From IMG/VR virus record IMGVR_UViG_3300018013_000023, positions 1 through 29,466 of that record: a stretch of 29,466 nt of DNA, one strand, 5' to 3'. Within the stretch, counting starts at the first letter, position 1, and every line of letters starts with the position of its first letter. Positions 19,792 to 29,466 of this stretch are shown here, piece by piece. The notes under the pieces were generated by a model. The model ran no database searches. It was not told where the DNA came from and saw only the letters and a list, made by a program, of their open reading frames with translations. A program made the position numbers and the translations under genes. Source of the DNA: a virus.

Positions 19792-22215
19792 GTGAAACGG
19801 AATTCCACATACGATGCGGGCGGCCTCTCCTCGGCCAATAACCGGCGCCAGCCGGTGAAGGAAAAGTGCGCCAGTGACGCCGCCCGCGAGCTTCTTGACC
19901 ATGGGCCCAAGCGACCCGCGCGCGCAAGCGCAGCGACCGAGCCCGGCCGGCCGGCGAGCCCGGCAGGTAGCGCGAGCGCGGCGGCGAGGCCAGACGATAA
20001 GCCGGGGGGCGCGGGAGGTTGTTGGCCCGCGCCCCAGGCCGTCCGACCCGTAGCGGCGCCTCGCCTGCCCGTCGTAACCCCAGCGAAGGCGGGGCAGAGC
20101 GGCGCCGATCTCCTGGACGCCCAACTGTCCCGATCGAAGAAAATCGGCAATGCCCCGCCTTGCGCCTCCTTTGCAGACTTCCTTCGCAATCATGCACGGG
20201 TCTTGCAACGCGACGGCACGGGCGGTGCATTCTCGATGCAGGGCCGCGCGCCCCTCGAGCTCATCGTTGACTGGTTGGACAAAATCACCCGCAACACACT
20301 GGACGCCCAGCCGGTGGACATCGACGGTGTGCGGTTCAGTCCCCACCAGCTTAAGGGCGCTACCGTCGCCGTGGGCGGCGGGGCCCAGTTCGGCAAGACG
20401 GTGCTCGAGCTGAACCTCATGGCCTACATCACGGCCATCCGTTTCCAGAGCGTCGGCAATTACCTTCCGGACCGGCTCAAGGTCGAGGAGATCGTGGGCC
20501 AGAAATTCCGGCCCAACGTGGTGGACCTTTATCCGTGGATGGCGGAAATGATCCAACTGGGCAAGGTCGAGAACGCCAGCGGCAAGACCATCGACCGCAA
20601 GGAAAGCTTCACCGTCACAGACGGTGAAAGAAAGGCCTTCGGCAATTTCTGCGGCATGCACCGCGTGCCGACCTCGCTGACGCTGGACCTGGCGTTGCTG
20701 GACGAGGTGGATGACATCGATGACCGCAACATCGGCTACGTCGATGCGCGCATGACCAACTCGCCCCTGCATTTGACCTGCTTCATCGGCACTCAACGCA
20801 TTGCCGGCGCCGGCCAGAATGCCCGGCTCAAGGCCTCGAGCTTCCACGTCAAGATGGTGCCCTGCCCGAAGTGCGGCCGTGAATGGTGCCTCGAGGAAGA
20901 ATTCCCCCGTTGTATCCGCATACGCAGGCCCGATGGTCACTCAGCCACCTGGCGCGCCGCCATAGCCGTAGCGGCGTCTCGGCAGAGCGCCGCCGATCCC
21001 ATCGTCTCGCCCGAAATCGGCCACGACCGCCTCGCCCATTACTACATCGCCTGTCCTGAGTGCGGGACCGAGCTGGACCGGGATGCCGGCCACTATGTGG
21101 CAAAGCACCCGGAGCGAATTGCCCAGGCCCGCCTGGGCGTCCGCGTCTCTCAGCTCAACATCAGCGCCATCAGCATGCAGGAAATCATTGGCGCCTGGTA
21201 TGCCGCCTTTGAGGACCCGTCCGGCTCCGCAATGCAGGCATTCTACTGCGATCGGGTGGCCATTCCCAACGCCGGCGCCGCCCAGCCCATCACCCAGGCG
21301 GTACTGGACGATTGCCGCAAGCTCGGCCTGGCCGAGAAGCCCGAGGCCGCCGAGCCATACGGCATGAGCCTGTTTCGACCTCCGCCCGCAACGGTCCGCG
21401 TCGCCGGCATGGACATGGGGCCTCGCTGCTGGTTCTGGTGTGACGAAATCCGCGGGCCGCTGGTCAGCGCCTGTGTCTGGGCTGAGCTGATAGCCAGCGG
21501 GACCGCGCCGGCGCGAGTGCCAATACTGATGAGCGCGCTCGGCATTGGCTGTCTGTTTTTGGACGCGGGCGGCGAGCCCGACTTGACCAAGCGCCTCGTT
21601 CTGGCGCTCAACGGGCTGGAGAATTATCAGCCGCCGATAGCGCCGAAAAGCGAGTTGCTCAAGATGACCCTCTCCAATCTGGGCGCGGGACTGTCTTGGG
21701 ATGGCCAGCGGGCGCGGTGGCGCGGTATCCGCGCAGCGGCTGTGCTTTTTGTCGCGGGCGAGGCGCGCGGGATCGAGCAGACGATCGGGTTCACTCAAGA
21801 GGGCCGAATCTATCCGCTCATCAAAACCAACCGCAGTGAAAGCATCCAGACTGCGGTGAACGATTTCCTGGGTCCCAAGGACGGTGTCATTGAGATGGTC
21901 GGCGGCGACGGCGGCAAGGCGGTCCGGATCTTGCGCCGGGCGCGCCTGCCCCAAACCTACATCGGACCTGGTGTGAGCCAGGCCGTGCTTGACGGCCATC
22001 TGCTGAATGTCCGCAAAGAGCGCGACGTCGGCACTGGCCAGGAAGATTGGATCGAGGGGATCGAAAACCATCTGGGCCTGGCCAAGTGCTATGCGCGCCT
22101 GGCGGCCACGATTTGCTCGGCTGGCGAGGGACCGCCCCCTCTGATGCCAATGGCCTTCAGCGGCAAGCGGGCAAAGATCCTGGCCGAGAGGCGCGATAGG
22201 AGCGTGCTGGCGTGA
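19792..22215 (+). CDS. terL: Large terminase, GpA-type
   Basis: The protein has 807 residues from GTG 19792. The ATPase core starts near residue 125 (SFADFLRNHARV), with Walker A GGGAQFGKT at 195-203, a SGKTIDRKESF element near 263-273 and Walker B LALLDEVDDID at about 300-310. A zinc site follows (CPKCG at 358, CPECG at 421). A nuclease-type RNase H fold starts near residue 535 (VAGMDMG). Family members cut and pump DNA into the procapsid. Residues about 392-402 between the zinc halves come from an in-frame palindromic repeat. The first 120 residues are Ala/Pro/Arg-rich, repeat-like and outside the conserved family length, so a later start is possible. Confidence 0.85.
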   Translation: MKRNSTYDAGGLSSANNRRQPVKEKCASDAARELLDHGPKRPARASAATEPGRPASPAGSASAAARPDDKPGGAGGCWPAPQAVRPVAAPRLPVVTPAKAGQSGADLLDAQLSRSKKIGNAPPCASFADFLRNHARVLQRDGTGGAFSMQGRAPLELIVDWLDKITRNTLDAQPVDIDGVRFSPHQLKGATVAVGGGAQFGKTVLELNLMAYITAIRFQSVGNYLPDRLKVEEIVGQKFRPNVVDLYPWMAEMIQLGKVENASGKTIDRKESFTVTDGERKAFGNFCGMHRVPTSLTLDLALLDEVDDIDDRNIGYVDARMTNSPLHLTCFIGTQRIAGAGQNARLKASSFHVKMVPCPKCGREWCLEEEFPRCIRIRRPDGHSATWRAAIAVAASRQSAADPIVSPEIGHDRLAHYYIACPECGTELDRDAGHYVAKHPERIAQARLGVRVSQLNISAISMQEIIGAWYAAFEDPSGSAMQAFYCDRVAIPNAGAAQPITQAVLDDCRKLGLAEKPEAAEPYGMSLFRPPPATVRVAGMDMGPRCWFWCDEIRGPLVSACVWAELIASGTAPARVPILMSALGIGCLFLDAGGEPDLTKRLVLALNGLENYQPPIAPKSELLKMTLSNLGAGLSWDGQRARWRGIRAAAVLFVAGEARGIEQTIGFTQEGRIYPLIKTNRSESIQTAVNDFLGPKDGVIEMVGGDGGKAVRILRRARLPQTYIGPGVSQAVLDGHLLNVRKERDVGTGQEDWIEGIENHLGLAKCYARLAATICSAGEGPPPLMPMAFSGKRAKILAERRDRSVLA
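20047..20095. repeat. Degenerate palindromic repeats in the terminase N-terminal extension
   Basis: CCGTAGCGGCGCCTCGCC at 20048 resembles the GTAGCGGCGTCTCGG element, and CCCCAGCGAAGGCGGGG at about 20078 is a palindrome of the type that often inserts in genes (translated as TPAKAG). Both lie in the non-conserved first 120 codons. Confidence 0.5.
20966..20994. repeat. Palindromic REP-like element inside the terminase gene
   Basis: CCGTAGCGGCGTCTCGGCAG AGCGCCGCC is nearly identical to the copies at 12736, 17191 and 26701. It is in frame and adds IAVAASRQSAADP between the two halves of the zinc site. Confidence 0.8.
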
Positions 22216-24944
22216 AAACAACCGCAAAGAACGCGAAGACAGCGCCGGTGAAGGCCAGAGCCGAAGAGAATCCGGAGGCGACCCCCACGCTCAGCACGGC
22301 GCCTGGCGGCGTCGAGAGGGTCGCGGATATAATCCAGCAACCCATGGTCGCCCCGGCTCCAAAGGCCGGTGACAAGTTAACGCGCGGTGGCACTGCTTCC
22401 GGCCGGCCGGGACAGATCGTTACCGCCGCCAACCGCTGGCGCGAAAACTACAACCCGCTCCGCGGCCTCACCATGCGCCGCGTGGTCGAGCTCCTCGAGC
22501 TTTCCCAGCGCGGCGACACTGCCTATTGCCAATGGACCTACCGCAAGATCGAGCGCGCCTACTACCTGCTCAGCGCCCTTATCACCCGCTGTGAGGCGCC
22601 GCTATTGGGCTTCGATTGGGAAATCAAAACCAAAGAAGACCTCCCGGACGGTGCTACGCCGGAAATGGCCGACGCCCAGGCCAAGGCCCTCAAAGAAGCC
22701 TACAACCGCATCGATAACCTCAAGGCGGCCGTCGCTCACCTGCACCTTGCCCACTTCCGCGGCTACGCCCATCTGCAAAAGCACCGCGATGCGGACGGCC
22801 AGGTCTATCACCTCGAACCCCTCCATCAATGGTGCGTCTGCCGCGACGGCCTGGATGGCAACTGGTTCTGGAACCCGGACAGTCGCTCGAGTTCCGCGCC
22901 GCTCATGTTCCTTGGCGCCAACTTCTGCATCGGCCGCGAGAACCTGCCACTCGAGGACTTCATCATCGTCGAAGAGCCCCGCCCCATTGACGAAATCGCA
23001 CTGGTGAATTTCGTCCGCGCCAACCTGGCGGAAAAAGACTGGGACGGCTTTGTCGAAATTTACGCCATTCCGGGCGGCGTCGTAACCATGCCTCCCAACG
23101 TCCCGCAGGGCAAGGAACACGATTATGAGGAGGCCGCGCAGAGAGTCGCCGAGGGTGGAAGCGGCGCCATCCCGAACGGCAGTTCCTATAAGGCCAACGA
23201 TCATCCGCGCGGCGTTGATCCCTTCACGCCCCGCCTCAACCGATTGGATATGGAGTTGGTGCTGGCGGCCACCGGCGGCAAGCTCACCATGCTCGCCGAA
23301 AGCGGCTCTGGCACCCTCGCCGGCGGCGCCCACCAGGATACCTTCGATGAAATCGCCGGAGGCCGCGCCGCAACCATCTCCGAGGAATTCCAGCGCCAGT
23401 TCGATGCCGAGATCTTGGCCGCCCAATTCCCAGGCCAGCCTGCGCTCGCCTACTGGCAACTTTCCGCCAAAGCCGAGGTCAACATCGATGGACTCGTCAA
23501 GAATGTGGTCGCCCTCAGCACGGCGGGAAAGAAGGCCGAGACGGCATGGCTTGAGGAAAAGACCGGCTACCAGCTCGAGGACGAACCCACGCCAGCCCAC
23601 GGCGCTCCTAATCCTAATCGTAATCCTAATCCCGGCGAGGGTCCGGGACCAGACGGATCCCCGGCCCACGAAGCGGCCGAGAGTCCCCAGACTGAGGCCG
23701 CCGAACAAGCCCAGCCTGGCGGGGACGATGATCCGATAGATAACCGGGACGCAGAGATGCGGCGGTTGATTCTGAATGGGGCCGGCAATCCGAACCATGA
23801 CGAGAAAGGCCAATTTGCCAGCGGTCCCGAGCTGGCCGCCTTTCATGACCGGGCCATTGCCTCGACGGATCCGTCGCATCGGGTAATGAGTTACCGGCCG
23901 GTGGATGAAGATGAGGCCGGGCGGATCAAGACCGCAACCGGCCTCGAGGTCTCGGGCCACGTCCATGCGGTGGACAATTACGCGTTGCGCCATATCCACA
24001 AAGAGCACGGCGATAAAGAGCGGGAGGAACCGCGTGGCCAGGTGGCGGTAACTCGGGAGGATATTGCGGCGTTGCCGGAGACGATTGGCAAGGCGGACAC
24101 CATCGAGCATGCCGGCCGGACTAAACTGGGAAGGGACGGCATCCGCTATACGCGGAAAACGGCGGCCACCACCGTTGTAGTGGAAGAGGTCCGGACGAAG
24201 GCCAGGCAATTAGTCCCGGTGTCAGTGGTGAAGTTTAAGAACCGGGCGACGATTGATGCTGGCGAGCCAACCCCAATCTCTACGGCCGAACCGCTTCGCC
24301 CGAACCAAACGATAATCCGCAACTCGGCGCGCGTCAACGACAATTCGGCGCCGGGGTTTGTGGCGGCTGTGGGCGAGGACCTCGGCCATGTGCTGGAGCG
24401 GCTCGGGAAAATCCTCGAGATCCAAGATGACGCGATCTTCTCCCATAAACTCAAAGTGTTCCTGGCGGATTTTCCACAGCTCCAAAAGGACGTCCTTGCG
24501 GATCCAGCCGCCGCGCGGGCGCTCCAACCAGTCATCGAACAGGCGTTCCTCGAGGGCCTCAAGTCCAAGCCCATGGTCGCCAATCGCGGCGGCTTCGATG
24601 AATCCCTCCATCCCCGTGATGAGAGCGGCAAATTCTCCGAGTCCGACCAAGGCCCGTCCTGGAAAGCTTCCGCCCATGCCGGCGACGCCACTGAGAAGGC
24701 CCAGGGCACCGACCTCCCCGAGGATCATGAAGCGGCTCATGAGGCACACCGCCGCGCTGAATCAGCCCACGCGGCGGCGGCTGTCCATGCCCGCGATAAA
24801 GGCGACGAAGAAAACGGCCGTCTCCATGAAAACCAGCGCAGACACCATCACAGCATGGCCATCTGGCACGGCGCCCGCGCCCAGATGACCGGCCAGGCCC
24901 GCGCCGAAAAAACTGCTGACCAGCGGGAAGGCCGGCAACAATGA
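22212..24944 (+). CDS. DUF935 (Mu gp29) portal fused to a PBECR-like nuclease domain
   Basis: The protein has 910 residues from GTG 22212, overlapping the terminase stop. Residues about 75-480 are a Mu gp29/DUF935 portal: RWRENYNPLRGLTMRRVVEL, then DTAYCQWTYRKIER and FDWEIKT. The portal is the dodecameric DNA gate of the head. After a Pro/Gly-rich linker comes the motif DEKGQFASG (530-538). Residues about 577-676 resemble PBECR-type (barnase-EndoU-colicin-RelE-like) phage nucleases: GHVHAVDNYALRHIHKEHGD with His583, 585, 594, 596 and 599, then RGQVAVTREDIAALP, GIRYTRK and VVEEVRTKARQLVPV. A second DESGKFSES motif (803-811) and a His/Ala-rich helical tail follow. The first 15 codons come from the AACCGCAAAGAACGC repeat. 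Portal confidence is high; the toxin-type domain is a strong inference. Confidence 0.82.
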   Translation: MKTTAKNAKTAPVKARAEENPEATPTLSTAPGGVERVADIIQQPMVAPAPKAGDKLTRGGTASGRPGQIVTAANRWRENYNPLRGLTMRRVVELLELSQRGDTAYCQWTYRKIERAYYLLSALITRCEAPLLGFDWEIKTKEDLPDGATPEMADAQAKALKEAYNRIDNLKAAVAHLHLAHFRGYAHLQKHRDADGQVYHLEPLHQWCVCRDGLDGNWFWNPDSRSSSAPLMFLGANFCIGRENLPLEDFIIVEEPRPIDEIALVNFVRANLAEKDWDGFVEIYAIPGGVVTMPPNVPQGKEHDYEEAAQRVAEGGSGAIPNGSSYKANDHPRGVDPFTPRLNRLDMELVLAATGGKLTMLAESGSGTLAGGAHQDTFDEIAGGRAATISEEFQRQFDAEILAAQFPGQPALAYWQLSAKAEVNIDGLVKNVVALSTAGKKAETAWLEEKTGYQLEDEPTPAHGAPNPNRNPNPGEGPGPDGSPAHEAAESPQTEAAEQAQPGGDDDPIDNRDAEMRRLILNGAGNPNHDEKGQFASGPELAAFHDRAIASTDPSHRVMSYRPVDEDEAGRIKTATGLEVSGHVHAVDNYALRHIHKEHGDKEREEPRGQVAVTREDIAALPETIGKADTIEHAGRTKLGRDGIRYTRKTAATTVVVEEVRTKARQLVPVSVVKFKNRATIDAGEPTPISTAEPLRPNQTIIRNSARVNDNSAPGFVAAVGEDLGHVLERLGKILEIQDDAIFSHKLKVFLADFPQLQKDVLADPAAARALQPVIEQAFLEGLKSKPMVANRGGFDESLHPRDESGKFSESDQGPSWKASAHAGDATEKAQGTDLPEDHEAAHEAHRRAESAHAAAAVHARDKGDEENGRLHENQRRHHHSMAIWHGARAQMTGQARAEKTADQREGRQQ

Positions 24945-24975: not shown

Positions 24976-26217
24976 ATGAGCAAACCCAAATGTGAACACA
25001 TGAACGAAGACGGGACCTTCAAAGGCGGCTTTGACGGTTGTGTCTTGCACATGACCACCTGCGAGGGCCACTCCGAGGAAAGCGCCAAAAAGATTTGCGG
25101 CAAGATCGCGCAGAACGTCTCCAACCGCGACCTTGGCGACCCTCTGAACCGCCCCATTCTCAATCGCAATTTCCAGCACCCTGCGGATGGTTGGTATCAG
25201 CTCGAGGCCAAAGGCGAGCACCCGGCCCGCGACCGGGGCATCATCCAGGTCATCGATGACACAGCCATCCAATCCATCGTCAATCGGTTCAATGCGGACG
25301 CTGATGCCGGCCGGCTCTCCCACGGCGCCGAAATGCTCATCGATCACGAGCACTTCAAGCACGACCTCGACAAGGAATCCACCGCTTACGGCTGGCTGAA
25401 CCGGCTCCAGGGCCGCGCTGATGGTTATTATGGGCGCATCCGGTGGACTGCGACGGGCAAGCCGGCCGTGGATGGCGGAGACTACCGGTTCTTCTCCACC
25501 GAGTATGACGCGCGAGACCTCAAGGTCCTGAACTCTGAGGGCAAGCTCAAGCGCATGCGGCCGACTCGGCTGGACGGGCTTTCGCTTACCAACAGCCCCA
25601 ATAATAAGGGCGGGAAACCGATCACCAACCGGGACCAATTTCGCGGCGCTTCCGCGCCGGCGGATAACACACAAACTCCTAACCAAAGGAAACCAATGCA
25701 GACCGTAGCAACCCGGCTTGGTTTGTCCGCCGACGCGTCCGAAGAGGCCGTCCTGGCGGAAGTGGTCAAGCTGATGAACCGAGCCACCCAGGCCGAGGCC
25801 CAGGTGGAACCGCTCAAGGTCCAAGTGAAAGACCTTGGGGACCAAAACCAAACGCTCCTGGGCGAGCAGTGCGATGCGCTGATGGATGGCCATGGCATCA
25901 AAAAAGACGATAAGATCCGGAACCGGCTCCGCCCGATCCTCGTCACCCTCAAAAACCGTGAGGAGCGGGTGACCGCGCTCAGCGAGTTCGGCTTCAAGCC
26001 CGTCGAGGCCGCGCCCGCCCGAGAGCAGACCAAGCTCTTCAATCGCCAGACCAAGCCGCCAGGCGGAAAGGTGGGGGAGGAAACGCCGAGCCGGGACGAA
26101 ACGCTCAAGGCGAACAAGATCATGAACCGGGCGGCGGAGTTGAGAAAGGAAACACCGATCCTGGGCCTCGCGACCTCCGTCGTCATGGCGCAAAAGGAGA
26201 TCGAGAACGCGGGTTAA
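24976..26217 (+). CDS. Mu I-like head maturation protease with scaffold domain
   Basis: This is a 413-residue protein. Residues 1-55 hold a Cys-rich segment (GTFKGGFDGCVLHMTTCEGH). Residues about 55-215 match Mu I-type prophage proteases: HGAEMLIDHEHFKHD, STAYGWLNRLQGRADG and DYRFFSTEYDAR. This enzyme trims scaffold and capsid proteins during head assembly. The C-terminal 170 residues are charged and coiled-coil-like, as expected of the scaffold. Residue 241 is an internal Met with its own ribosome site (see 25696). The order portal, protease, cement, capsid is as in Mu. Confidence 0.85.
   Translation: MSKPKCEHMNEDGTFKGGFDGCVLHMTTCEGHSEESAKKICGKIAQNVSNRDLGDPLNRPILNRNFQHPADGWYQLEAKGEHPARDRGIIQVIDDTAIQSIVNRFNADADAGRLSHGAEMLIDHEHFKHDLDKESTAYGWLNRLQGRADGYYGRIRWTATGKPAVDGGDYRFFSTEYDARDLKVLNSEGKLKRMRPTRLDGLSLTNSPNNKGGKPITNRDQFRGASAPADNTQTPNQRKPMQTVATRLGLSADASEEAVLAEVVKLMNRATQAEAQVEPLKVQVKDLGDQNQTLLGEQCDALMDGHGIKKDDKIRNRLRPILVTLKNREERVTALSEFGFKPVEAAPAREQTKLFNRQTKPPGGKVGEETPSRDETLKANKIMNRAAELRKETPILGLATSVVMAQKEIENAG
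25696..26217 (+). CDS. Internal in-frame scaffold product (Mu Z-like)
   Basis: ATG 25696 is in frame with the protease gene and lies 5 nt after AAAGGA, a better ribosome site than that of the full gene. It would give a 173-residue scaffold beginning MQTVATRLGLSADASEEAVL with a long coiled coil (TQAEAQVEPLKVQVKDLGDQ). Mu produces its scaffold Z in the same way from within gene I. That this start is used is inferred. Confidence 0.65.
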   Translation: MQTVATRLGLSADASEEAVLAEVVKLMNRATQAEAQVEPLKVQVKDLGDQNQTLLGEQCDALMDGHGIKKDDKIRNRLRPILVTLKNREERVTALSEFGFKPVEAAPAREQTKLFNRQTKPPGGKVGEETPSRDETLKANKIMNRAAELRKETPILGLATSVVMAQKEIENAG

Positions 26218-26761: not shown

Positions 26762-27709
26762 ATGACAAGACTTCAACAGCTCGCTACGAGTCCGCTCCTG
26801 ACGAACTTCGCCATCACGGCCAGCCAAAAGGCTATCCGGCCCGTGGGCCAGTTCATCAGCCCAATCTGCGAGGTCCCCGACCTCACGTTCCGGTATAAGG
26901 TCTATACCGAAAACAACCGTTACCGCGTCCCGCACACCAAACGCCAGCCCGGCAGTCCGGCGACCATGCTCGGGTTCTCGGCGACCGATGCAAGCCAGAC
27001 CCTCGAGCCGAACGCCCTGGACTTCCCGGTCCCGAATGCCGAAGAGCTGAGCGATGAAGGCCTCCAATTCTCCATCATGGAAGCGCAGAGCACGCTGGCC
27101 GATGCCTCTGGCCTCTCCCTCGAAAACGAGATCGTTTCGATGGCCCAGACCGCCGCCCTGGCCTCCAGCCTTACCGCCCATGCTGACTTCACCGATGCCG
27201 GCGTGGACCCGGTCGCCCTCCTGGACAATCTCATCCTCCAGGTCATGCTCGCCGCCAAAAACGGCGCGCCGGTCAAGGTCCTGTTTGGGACCACGAAATT
27301 CAAGCAGTTCAAGAATAACCCCAACGTCCGCGCCCGCTTCATCGTCTCGGCTGACCGCGGGGCCGGTGGCTCGGACAGCATCGGCACGGTCTCCCCGACC
27401 ATTGGCGACGTGAAACGCCTGCTCATGACCAACCCGGACTGCGAGCTCTCGCTCATGGTCATCGATAACTCCGCCCCAGGCGAAGCCAGCAACATCCAGT
27501 TCCTGCTGGACACCTGCGTCATCGTCTTCGCCAGCAACAGCACTCCCAACCGCATGGACCCGTCCTTCATGAAGACGTTCGCGCGCATGGGCGGCTTCTT
27601 CCGCGCCGGCTCCTACATGACCGTCGACCAACGCGACCAGGTCCTCAAAATGGACTGGACCACACTGCCGTGCGTTACCAACTCGGCGGCCGTGGGCGCG
27701 ATCGACTGA
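26762..27709 (+). CDS. Major capsid protein
   Basis: This 315-residue protein has a strong ribosome site (AAAGGAA). Its N-terminus (LTNFAITASQKAIRPVGQFI followed by SPICEVPDLTFRYKVYTENN) is typical of Mu T-type and other HK97-fold capsid proteins with a short N-arm. A long central helix (about 92-130) includes LSLENEIVSMAQTAAL. The C-terminal domain includes VKVLFGTTKFKQF, VGGDS-like loops and a strand (SNIQFLLDTCVIVFAS) with RMGGFFRAGSYMTVDQRDQV near the end. Position after the protease and cement genes, the high expression-type start and the length all fit. It forms the icosahedral head. Confidence 0.85.
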   Translation: MTRLQQLATSPLLTNFAITASQKAIRPVGQFISPICEVPDLTFRYKVYTENNRYRVPHTKRQPGSPATMLGFSATDASQTLEPNALDFPVPNAEELSDEGLQFSIMEAQSTLADASGLSLENEIVSMAQTAALASSLTAHADFTDAGVDPVALLDNLILQVMLAAKNGAPVKVLFGTTKFKQFKNNPNVRARFIVSADRGAGGSDSIGTVSPTIGDVKRLLMTNPDCELSLMVIDNSAPGEASNIQFLLDTCVIVFASNSTPNRMDPSFMKTFARMGGFFRAGSYMTVDQRDQVLKMDWTTLPCVTNSAAVGAID

Positions 27710-28987: not shown

Positions 28988-29466
28988 ATGCTGTTCGATC
29001 CGACAAAATCTTTCGCCGAGGAACTGGCCAAATTGCAAGCGGCCGGGAAGATCTCGACGCAACTGACGGCGGCCCAGAGGGCCGCCATTGAAGCCTCCGT
29101 CCGCAAATACGCCGCGGCGGCGGCACAGAGCACAATCAAGACGGTCTCGGAAGAGATCCAGAAGACCATCTTGGACCTGGTCAACCCCCAGCAGGTCGAG
29201 CGAGAAGGGAAAGCGCAGACCGTAACAGAGGGCTTCAACCCGGCCACAGCGCGGGAGCATCTGACAGGATTCCTCAAGGATTTTGAGACTGGGGCCTTGG
29301 CCGATCGCCTTGAGTTTGCCCTCGATGTCGGCACCAAGGTTGCCAACGGCGCCGCCCGATTCGTCCAGCAAAACGCGGACCCTTTGGTCGTGGACGCTTA
29401 CCCGGCCCTCGAGCTCGAGCGCCTCTTCGACCGCGACGTGCCCCGCGGCTTTAAGCGCATCGCCGG
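28988..29466 (+). CDS. Late structural-region protein, cut by window end
   Basis: The frame is open from ATG 28988 to the last base, 159 codons without a stop, so the gene is incomplete at its 3' end. The start MLFDPTKSFAEELAKLQAAG is helical. The N-terminal 70 residues are Ala/Lys/Glu-rich coiled coil. The later part (EFALDVGTKVANGAARFVQQ, then YPALELERLFDRDVPRGFKR) looks like a conserved phage core region with an Asp/Arg-rich end. It lies where Mu has gp37, so a connector or tail-terminator role is possible. I cannot name a family. Confidence 0.65.
   Translation, partial: MLFDPTKSFAEELAKLQAAGKISTQLTAAQRAAIEASVRKYAAAAAQSTIKTVSEEIQKTILDLVNPQQVEREGKAQTVTEGFNPATAREHLTGFLKDFETGALADRLEFALDVGTKVANGAARFVQQNADPLVVDAYPALELERLFDRDVPRGFKRIA

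Follow-up and report, generated by a model that had tools for sequence, protein, structure and literature searches.

A PBECR3 nuclease-like domain inserted in the portal protein of a Mu-like phage, and a motif shared with the scaffold that may mark its release

Toxin-like domains fused to phage head proteins have already been catalogued, which raises the question of how such a domain gets free of a structural protein when the particle itself remains outside the cell. Among polyvalent proteins, PBECR domains, some of them fused to MuF or to the portal, were described by Iyer and colleagues as having a His and Ser/Thr active site and as being expected to be packaged and injected, with the PBECR domain of Mu's own MuF (gp30) treated as inactive, while RegB and other BECR enzymes target mRNA during infection (Iyer et al., 2017, PMC5512222). 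The MuF polymorphic toxins of temperate phages likewise place a swap-in toxin-like domain on a head-module protein, alongside a Mu-type transposition module (PMC5576092). In phage T4 the prohead protease (gp21) matures the head and internal proteins of the head are ejected, and the proteases of giant phages process the portal and some ejection proteins; in these systems the head protease acts at a short motif with E at P1 (PMC9026906, PMC5694885). In Mu itself, the last 124 residues of the portal protein gp29 are missing in virions, a loss that the authors of the cryo-EM study attribute to protease I, citing Grimaud 1996 (PMC11915804).

The window analysed here, the whole 29,466-nucleotide stretch of viral DNA, carries Mu-type genes in its left part (Gam, an AAA ATPase and an HNH protein) and, further on, a head module in the order terminase–portal–protease–major head protein:

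19792..22215, + strand: terminase large subunit (GpA-type ATPase; PF05876, E 1.7e-7; phrog_675, E 1.9e-31), overlapping the portal start
22212..24944, + strand: portal protein with inserted PBECR3, 910 aa (ORF and Pfam)
22434..23576, + strand: portal core, residues 75-455 (PF06074; remote PDB matches; ordered in the AF2 model)
24976..26217, + strand: Mu I-like head maturation protease/scaffold protein (PF10123, E 9.1e-20; phrog_328, E 1.8e-24)
26762..27709, + strand: major head protein (phrog_1005, E 1.7e-19)

The portal gene begins with a GTG that overlaps the terminase stop, runs for 910 codons without interruption and ends 31 nt before the protease start, and the effector domain is thus encoded among virion components. 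A first-pass annotation had read a DUF935 portal from the letters alone, and this identity is borne out both by a Portal_Mu match (PF06074) over residues 109-452 (E 2e-28) and by the position of the gene after the terminase; the core also has remote matches to the JBD30 and Mu portal chains in the PDB. A whole-protein search of genome contigs gave no confirmed match. A search with the portal alignment recovered 43 loci, nearly all in Verrucomicrobiota and related PVC bacteria, so the phage host is most likely a member of the Verrucomicrobiota.

The contig is metagenomic and the exact arrangement is found in few relatives, as might be expected of a chimera, a sequencing artefact or a decaying, functionless fusion. 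We nevertheless give artefact or decay next to no probability. The frame is open throughout, with the quoted sequence blocks where the first-pass annotation placed them, and third-codon-position GC is high right across the portal/PBECR3 junction. An assembly join of two genes is excluded because the same fusion, sought in other phages as had been suggested, occurs in L023, an independent relative from a separate metagenome, and in a second contig that is 99.98% identical over 12,255 nt and possibly the same virus. The window and L023 are 67% identical overall, about 69–70% in the portal core, 74% across motif plus PBECR3 and 80% in PBECR3, so that PBECR3 has diverged less than the core; dN/dS between them is about 0.08 for PBECR3 and 0.13 for the portal core, values that are only rough as dS is near saturation.

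The region beyond the portal core comprises the following domains and predicted active-site residues:

23913..24224, + strand: PBECR3 nuclease-like domain, residues 568-671 (PF18812; AF2 pLDDT 89.7)
24006..24008, + strand: His599, predicted catalytic (invariant in alignments of 18 relatives; role after Iyer 2017)
24222..24224, + strand: Ser671, predicted catalytic, at the Ser/Thr position of the last strand (alignment; role after Iyer 2017)
24345..24563, + strand: C-terminal helical domain of the portal, residues 712-784 (alignment, AF2)
24729..24938, + strand: C-terminal His-rich helical module, residues 840-909 (without family match; L023 lacks it)

The PBECR-type domain that had been proposed for this region is recovered by profile search as PBECR3 (E 8.7e-14, 51.9 bits against a curated cut-off of 30). 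Besides His599, which stands for the family's N-terminal-helix His, Thr614 and Asp617 are invariant among the 18 aligned relatives, and the Ser671 position is Ser or Thr in those whose aligned slice reached that far. Modelled alone, the fragment forms helices followed by four strands, where a BECR fold has a helix and then four to five strands, and the structural check was divided in its outcome: Foldseek matched this model to predicted models of viral ‘nuclease’ polyvalent proteins and of a MuF C-terminal domain (E 7.6e-11 to 1e-3), but among solved structures in the PDB, those with barnase, EndoU, colicin and RelE folds included, it found no significant homologue (best E 0.25). A PDB sequence search, using the domain with one extra residue at its start, gave no match either, and our literature search found no experimentally tested PBECR3 member. 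By analogy with its family, the domain is presumably RNase-like (Iyer et al., 2017, PMC5512222).

PBECR3 does not simply prolong the portal. Although portal and PBECR domain do share one frame, as first described, alignment places PBECR3 as an insertion between the portal core and the C-terminal helical domain (about 712-784), and in L024, L025 and L026, which lack PBECR3, the core leads through a linker directly to that helical domain. The full-length AF2 model has low overall confidence (pLDDT 59.9); its core and helical bundle are ordered, while its low-confidence, probably disordered stretches include 460-527, 660-711 and 786-842. The attachment of PBECR to the portal instead of MuF is real, but as such it is not new since it was already stated by Iyer and colleagues (2017, PMC5512222). 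What differs from the polyvalent proteins described there is the insertion between core and helical domain in place of a simple terminal fusion, the putative protease sites that bracket the domain (see below) and the presence of the fusion in a host group that appears to lack MuF.

The post-core region is a variable cargo site in the MuF-less Mu-like phages of Verrucomicrobiota. PBECR3 precedes the helical domain in the window and L023 and follows it in L042 (E 7.9e-22); the portal tail of L038 has a weaker PBECR3 match (E 1e-4) and that of L100 a PBECR2 domain (E 5.7e-8), while a Mu-type portal is fused to topoisomerase IB in L120:4434-7100 (Topoisom_I, PF01028, E 8.6e-17) and, in frame, to a Mu I-like protease in L063:5001-6971 (PF10123, E 1.2e-14). 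Pfam recognizes nothing in the inserts of L037, L096 and L103, and in that of L097 only a weak PBECR2-like match (E 0.12). Most relatives lack PBECR3, so the portal does not need it. Unlike in the MuF polymorphic toxins (PMC5576092), the carrier here is the portal, the 31-nt gap before the protease leaves no small immunity ORF directly downstream, and MuF (PF04233) was not detected in the portal protein, the window or six related records, some of which are possibly fragments.

The linkers between these domains carry a short motif, [ILVTF]xNR, at residues 511 (PIDNR), 677 (FKNR) and 791 (VANR), that is, at every inter-domain junction, bracketing PBECR3 and the second module:

23742..23747, + strand: predicted protease site 1, PID-NR at residues 511-512 (motif statistics; disordered linker 460-527)
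24240..24245, + strand: predicted protease site 2, FKNR at residues 677-678 (immediately past the final strand of PBECR3; same KFKNRA in L023)
24582..24587, + strand: predicted protease site 3, VANR at residues 791-792 (motif; disorder 786-842)

The portal thus carries the motif that is repeated in its cognate scaffold, as the window's protease/scaffold protein has 11 NR dipeptides, nine of them [ILVTF]xNR (for example PITNR, PILNR and KLMNR); the Phe at −2 of site 2 is a minor variant. Beyond this one phage, NR exceeds its expected count more than any other dipeptide does, both across 79 protease/scaffold proteins (570 observed, 113.8 expected) and across 57 portal tails (90 observed, 22.6 expected). 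Portal cores (63 and 69.6) and terminases (37 and 29.7) show no such excess, and major head proteins (72 and 46.7) show a slight one. The full motif occurs 206 times in scaffold C-terminal halves against 8.6 expected (24-fold; maximum of 500 shuffles 19) and 57 times in 50 strictly dereplicated portal tails against 4.9 (11.5-fold; shuffle maximum 12), counts that are not fully independent because the compared proteins share ancestry. NR without the preceding hydrophobic residue stays at background (scaffold 15 vs 13.9; portal tails 30 vs 24.9). Forty of the 50 dereplicated tails contain the motif (shuffled mean 4.7), with the first NR mostly 13–40 residues past the portal core. A relaxed rule, [IL]xN[GDSN], is 3.1-fold enriched in portal tails and not enriched in scaffolds. 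We suggest that [ILVTF]xNR is the predicted cleavage specificity of Mu I-like proteases in Verrucomicrobiota phages. In the window's own protease, positions 24976-25125 encode an additional N-terminal module that contains Cys and a DGTF stretch, ends at a VSNR site and is absent from L023, and the protease protein of L026:6560-7504 has an inserted or appended repeat-rich basic stretch following KNYGTSEGAKKGWDTRGRG.

As the xNR motif was first noticed while reading the same portal tails on which it was counted, controls and a second, independent phage set were used. Where Mu-like phages infect other hosts, another motif is repeated in the protease/scaffold protein, and that motif recurs in the linker of the portal. 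In an unsupervised comparison across 12 Mu-like phages, pairs of portal linker and own scaffold scored 7.15 on average (permutation P 5e-5), against 1.5 +/- 1.0 for control pieces from the portal core. Recovered portal/scaffold pairs include AALSA/AALSA in Mu, VGLSD/VALSD in SuMu, IAINR/IALNR in MuM16 (a Shewanella phage) and LKAGA/LKAGA in Mushu; in some phages, for example Ps56, POA1180 and RhkS_P1, the best match is no convincing motif. A universal xNR motif for Mu I was rejected, since Mu, SuMu, RS1 and others repeat different motifs; among Mu-like phages outside this group, ALSA, LKAG and ALNR are such repeats. In the Mu portal, AALSA lies at residues 427-431 of 512, about 80 residues from the end and within the stretch missing from virions. 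Mu gp29 and the window portal belong to the same portal and protease families and share with their scaffolds a linker motif, but Mu's lost segment holds no enzyme and has AALSA in place of xNR (PMC11915804).

The first-pass annotation also noted that two similar DExGxF motifs flank the nuclease-like domain, and both are present at residues 530-535 (NPNHDEKGQF) and 803-808 (HPRDESGKF):

23787..23825, + strand: first DExGxF module signature, NPNHDEKGQFASG, residues 526-538
24609..24635, + strand: second DExGxF motif, HPRDESGKF, residues 800-808

The suggestion that cleavage occurs near them is not favoured: they are probably not cleavage sites, as xNR sites precede them and as they are part of an NPNHDExGRF signature found in many phage proteins. 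In viral contigs, 57 stretches (loci L129-L185) match NPNHDExGxF, often several to an operon (as in L003), and the domains of the proteins concerned include ADP-ribosyltransferase, MuF, portal, prohead protease and the anti-CBASS domain Acb1; the longer form NPNHDExGRFxSG stands ahead of many such mutually unrelated domains, in some cases four times within a single protein. It resembles a signature with which many modules of head-borne cargo begin, and for which a role as packaging or delivery tag is one possibility; literature searches found no description of it.

Our preferred reading, to which we give a little better than an even chance, is that the head protease frees an RNase-like domain of ~18 kDa inside the capsid for injection with the DNA. 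Twelve portal-core copies would form the ring at the head vertex, and their tails inside the procapsid would serve as a cargo bay holding PBECR3. The neighbouring Mu I-like protease would recognize [I/L/V/T/F]-x-N-R, cut its own scaffold half and also cut the disordered portal linkers at about 511/512, 677/678 and 791/792, so that a normal portal core would remain in the virion. Loss of the portal C-terminus has a precedent in Mu, where it is attributed to protease I, and release by the adjacent protease, already entertained by the earlier reader, is the best-supported reading on account of this loss and the xNR sites. Calculated products of cutting at all three sites are a 56 kDa portal and pieces of 18.3, 12.3 and 13.0 kDa, the first of which (residues ~513-678, basic, pI 8.2) would comprise the NPNHDEKGQFASG signature plus PBECR3. 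In JBD30 the portal's crown and wing are on the inner side of the capsid, whose capsomer pores measure 6–7 Å in radius (PMC11445458), so a folded 18 kDa domain should stay inside and exit through the portal with the DNA. Up to 12 copies could thus be retained in the head and ejected like the T4 internal proteins; in the new host, PBECR3 may then attack host or defence RNA as an RNase that needs no metal and relies on His599 and Ser671. Such an effector would resemble T4 internal proteins, Alt and giant-phage ejection proteins in travelling inside the head and leaving it together with the DNA, but those are separate proteins and are not cut from the portal (PMC9026906, PMC5694885).

Counting against an active RNase cargo is the absence of an adjacent immunity gene, which leaves tolerance in the producer cell without explanation. 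This absence would suit a domain that acts late in the producing cell, prior to assembly or in the course of it, and that degrades, within the fusion or as a cleaved fragment, the RNA of the host or of rival phages, with its placement in the virion being incidental; all portal is, after all, synthesized in that cell, and mRNA is a target of RegB and other BECR enzymes in the course of infection (Iyer et al., 2017, PMC5512222). For such a task, however, a separate gene would suffice, whereas the domain belongs to a head protein present in 12 copies, lies in the tail that the protease is predicted to process, is bracketed by the motif both here and in L023, and shares its place with unrelated cargo (TopoIB, PBECR2) in relatives. 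We therefore regard late action in the producing cell as unlikely, if the least unlikely of the alternatives.

The motif and the domain could also each have a purely structural meaning. The xNR motif could serve a different purpose, for instance in binding to capsid or scaffold: repeated short motifs in the scaffold could bind capsid subunits, and the copies in portal tails could recruit scaffold, so that xNR docks scaffold to portal or capsid and PBECR3 is released, if at all, by another route. We consider this improbable, as the Mu portal loses its C-terminus from virions and its linker carries the scaffold motif AALSA. In placing a hydrophobic residue two positions ahead of the Asn, xNR also recalls the short motifs that related prohead proteases use. 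Slightly more improbable, in our judgement, is that PBECR3 stays attached to the portal and, as a structural part close to where the DNA leaves, binds nucleic acid without ever becoming a free effector, a role proposed for the PBECR of Mu gp30. The portal crown does face the packaged DNA, and that PBECR is considered catalytically inactive (Iyer et al., 2017, PMC5512222), but here the predicted catalytic His599 is kept in 18 relatives together with Ser/Thr at the Ser671 position, the portal, which lacks PBECR3 in most relatives, does not need it, and protease-like sites flank it.

Returning to release by the head protease, we give about even odds to its extension to the MuF-less Mu-like phages of Verrucomicrobiota as a group: the portal tail would be an interchangeable cargo bay, and a protease acting at [ILVTF]xNR would both mature the portal and liberate the inserted enzyme (PBECR3, PBECR2, topoisomerase IB or others) in the capsid for injection, with Mu I-type cleavage specificity readable from the motifs that scaffold and portal linker share. 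The portal is in any case a second carrier of swappable cargo beside MuF. If the reading holds, the cleavage sites of Mu I-type proteases could be read from sequence, and the question of release would have a testable answer for the portal, namely that the protease which clears the scaffold also cuts the cargo free. As far as the literature was searched, the insertion architecture, the variable cargo site and the putative protease motif that would tie cargo release to head maturation are new.

PBECR3-like domains also occur elsewhere in these and other phages. In L107:6680-7906 one lies at the C-terminus of another protein of the same module (E 1.3e-9 with a home-made profile); this protein resembles the product of the window gene starting at 28988, which has no PBECR3-like domain. 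In Rhizobium phage RHph_N28_2 (L006:4974-5333) a solo PBECR3-like gene of 120 aa lies directly downstream of the portal gene. Finally, L021:2425-4824 encodes a MuF–PBECR3 protein with an apparent intein (Hint-like) insertion, judged by eye only, at the MuF cysteine cluster.
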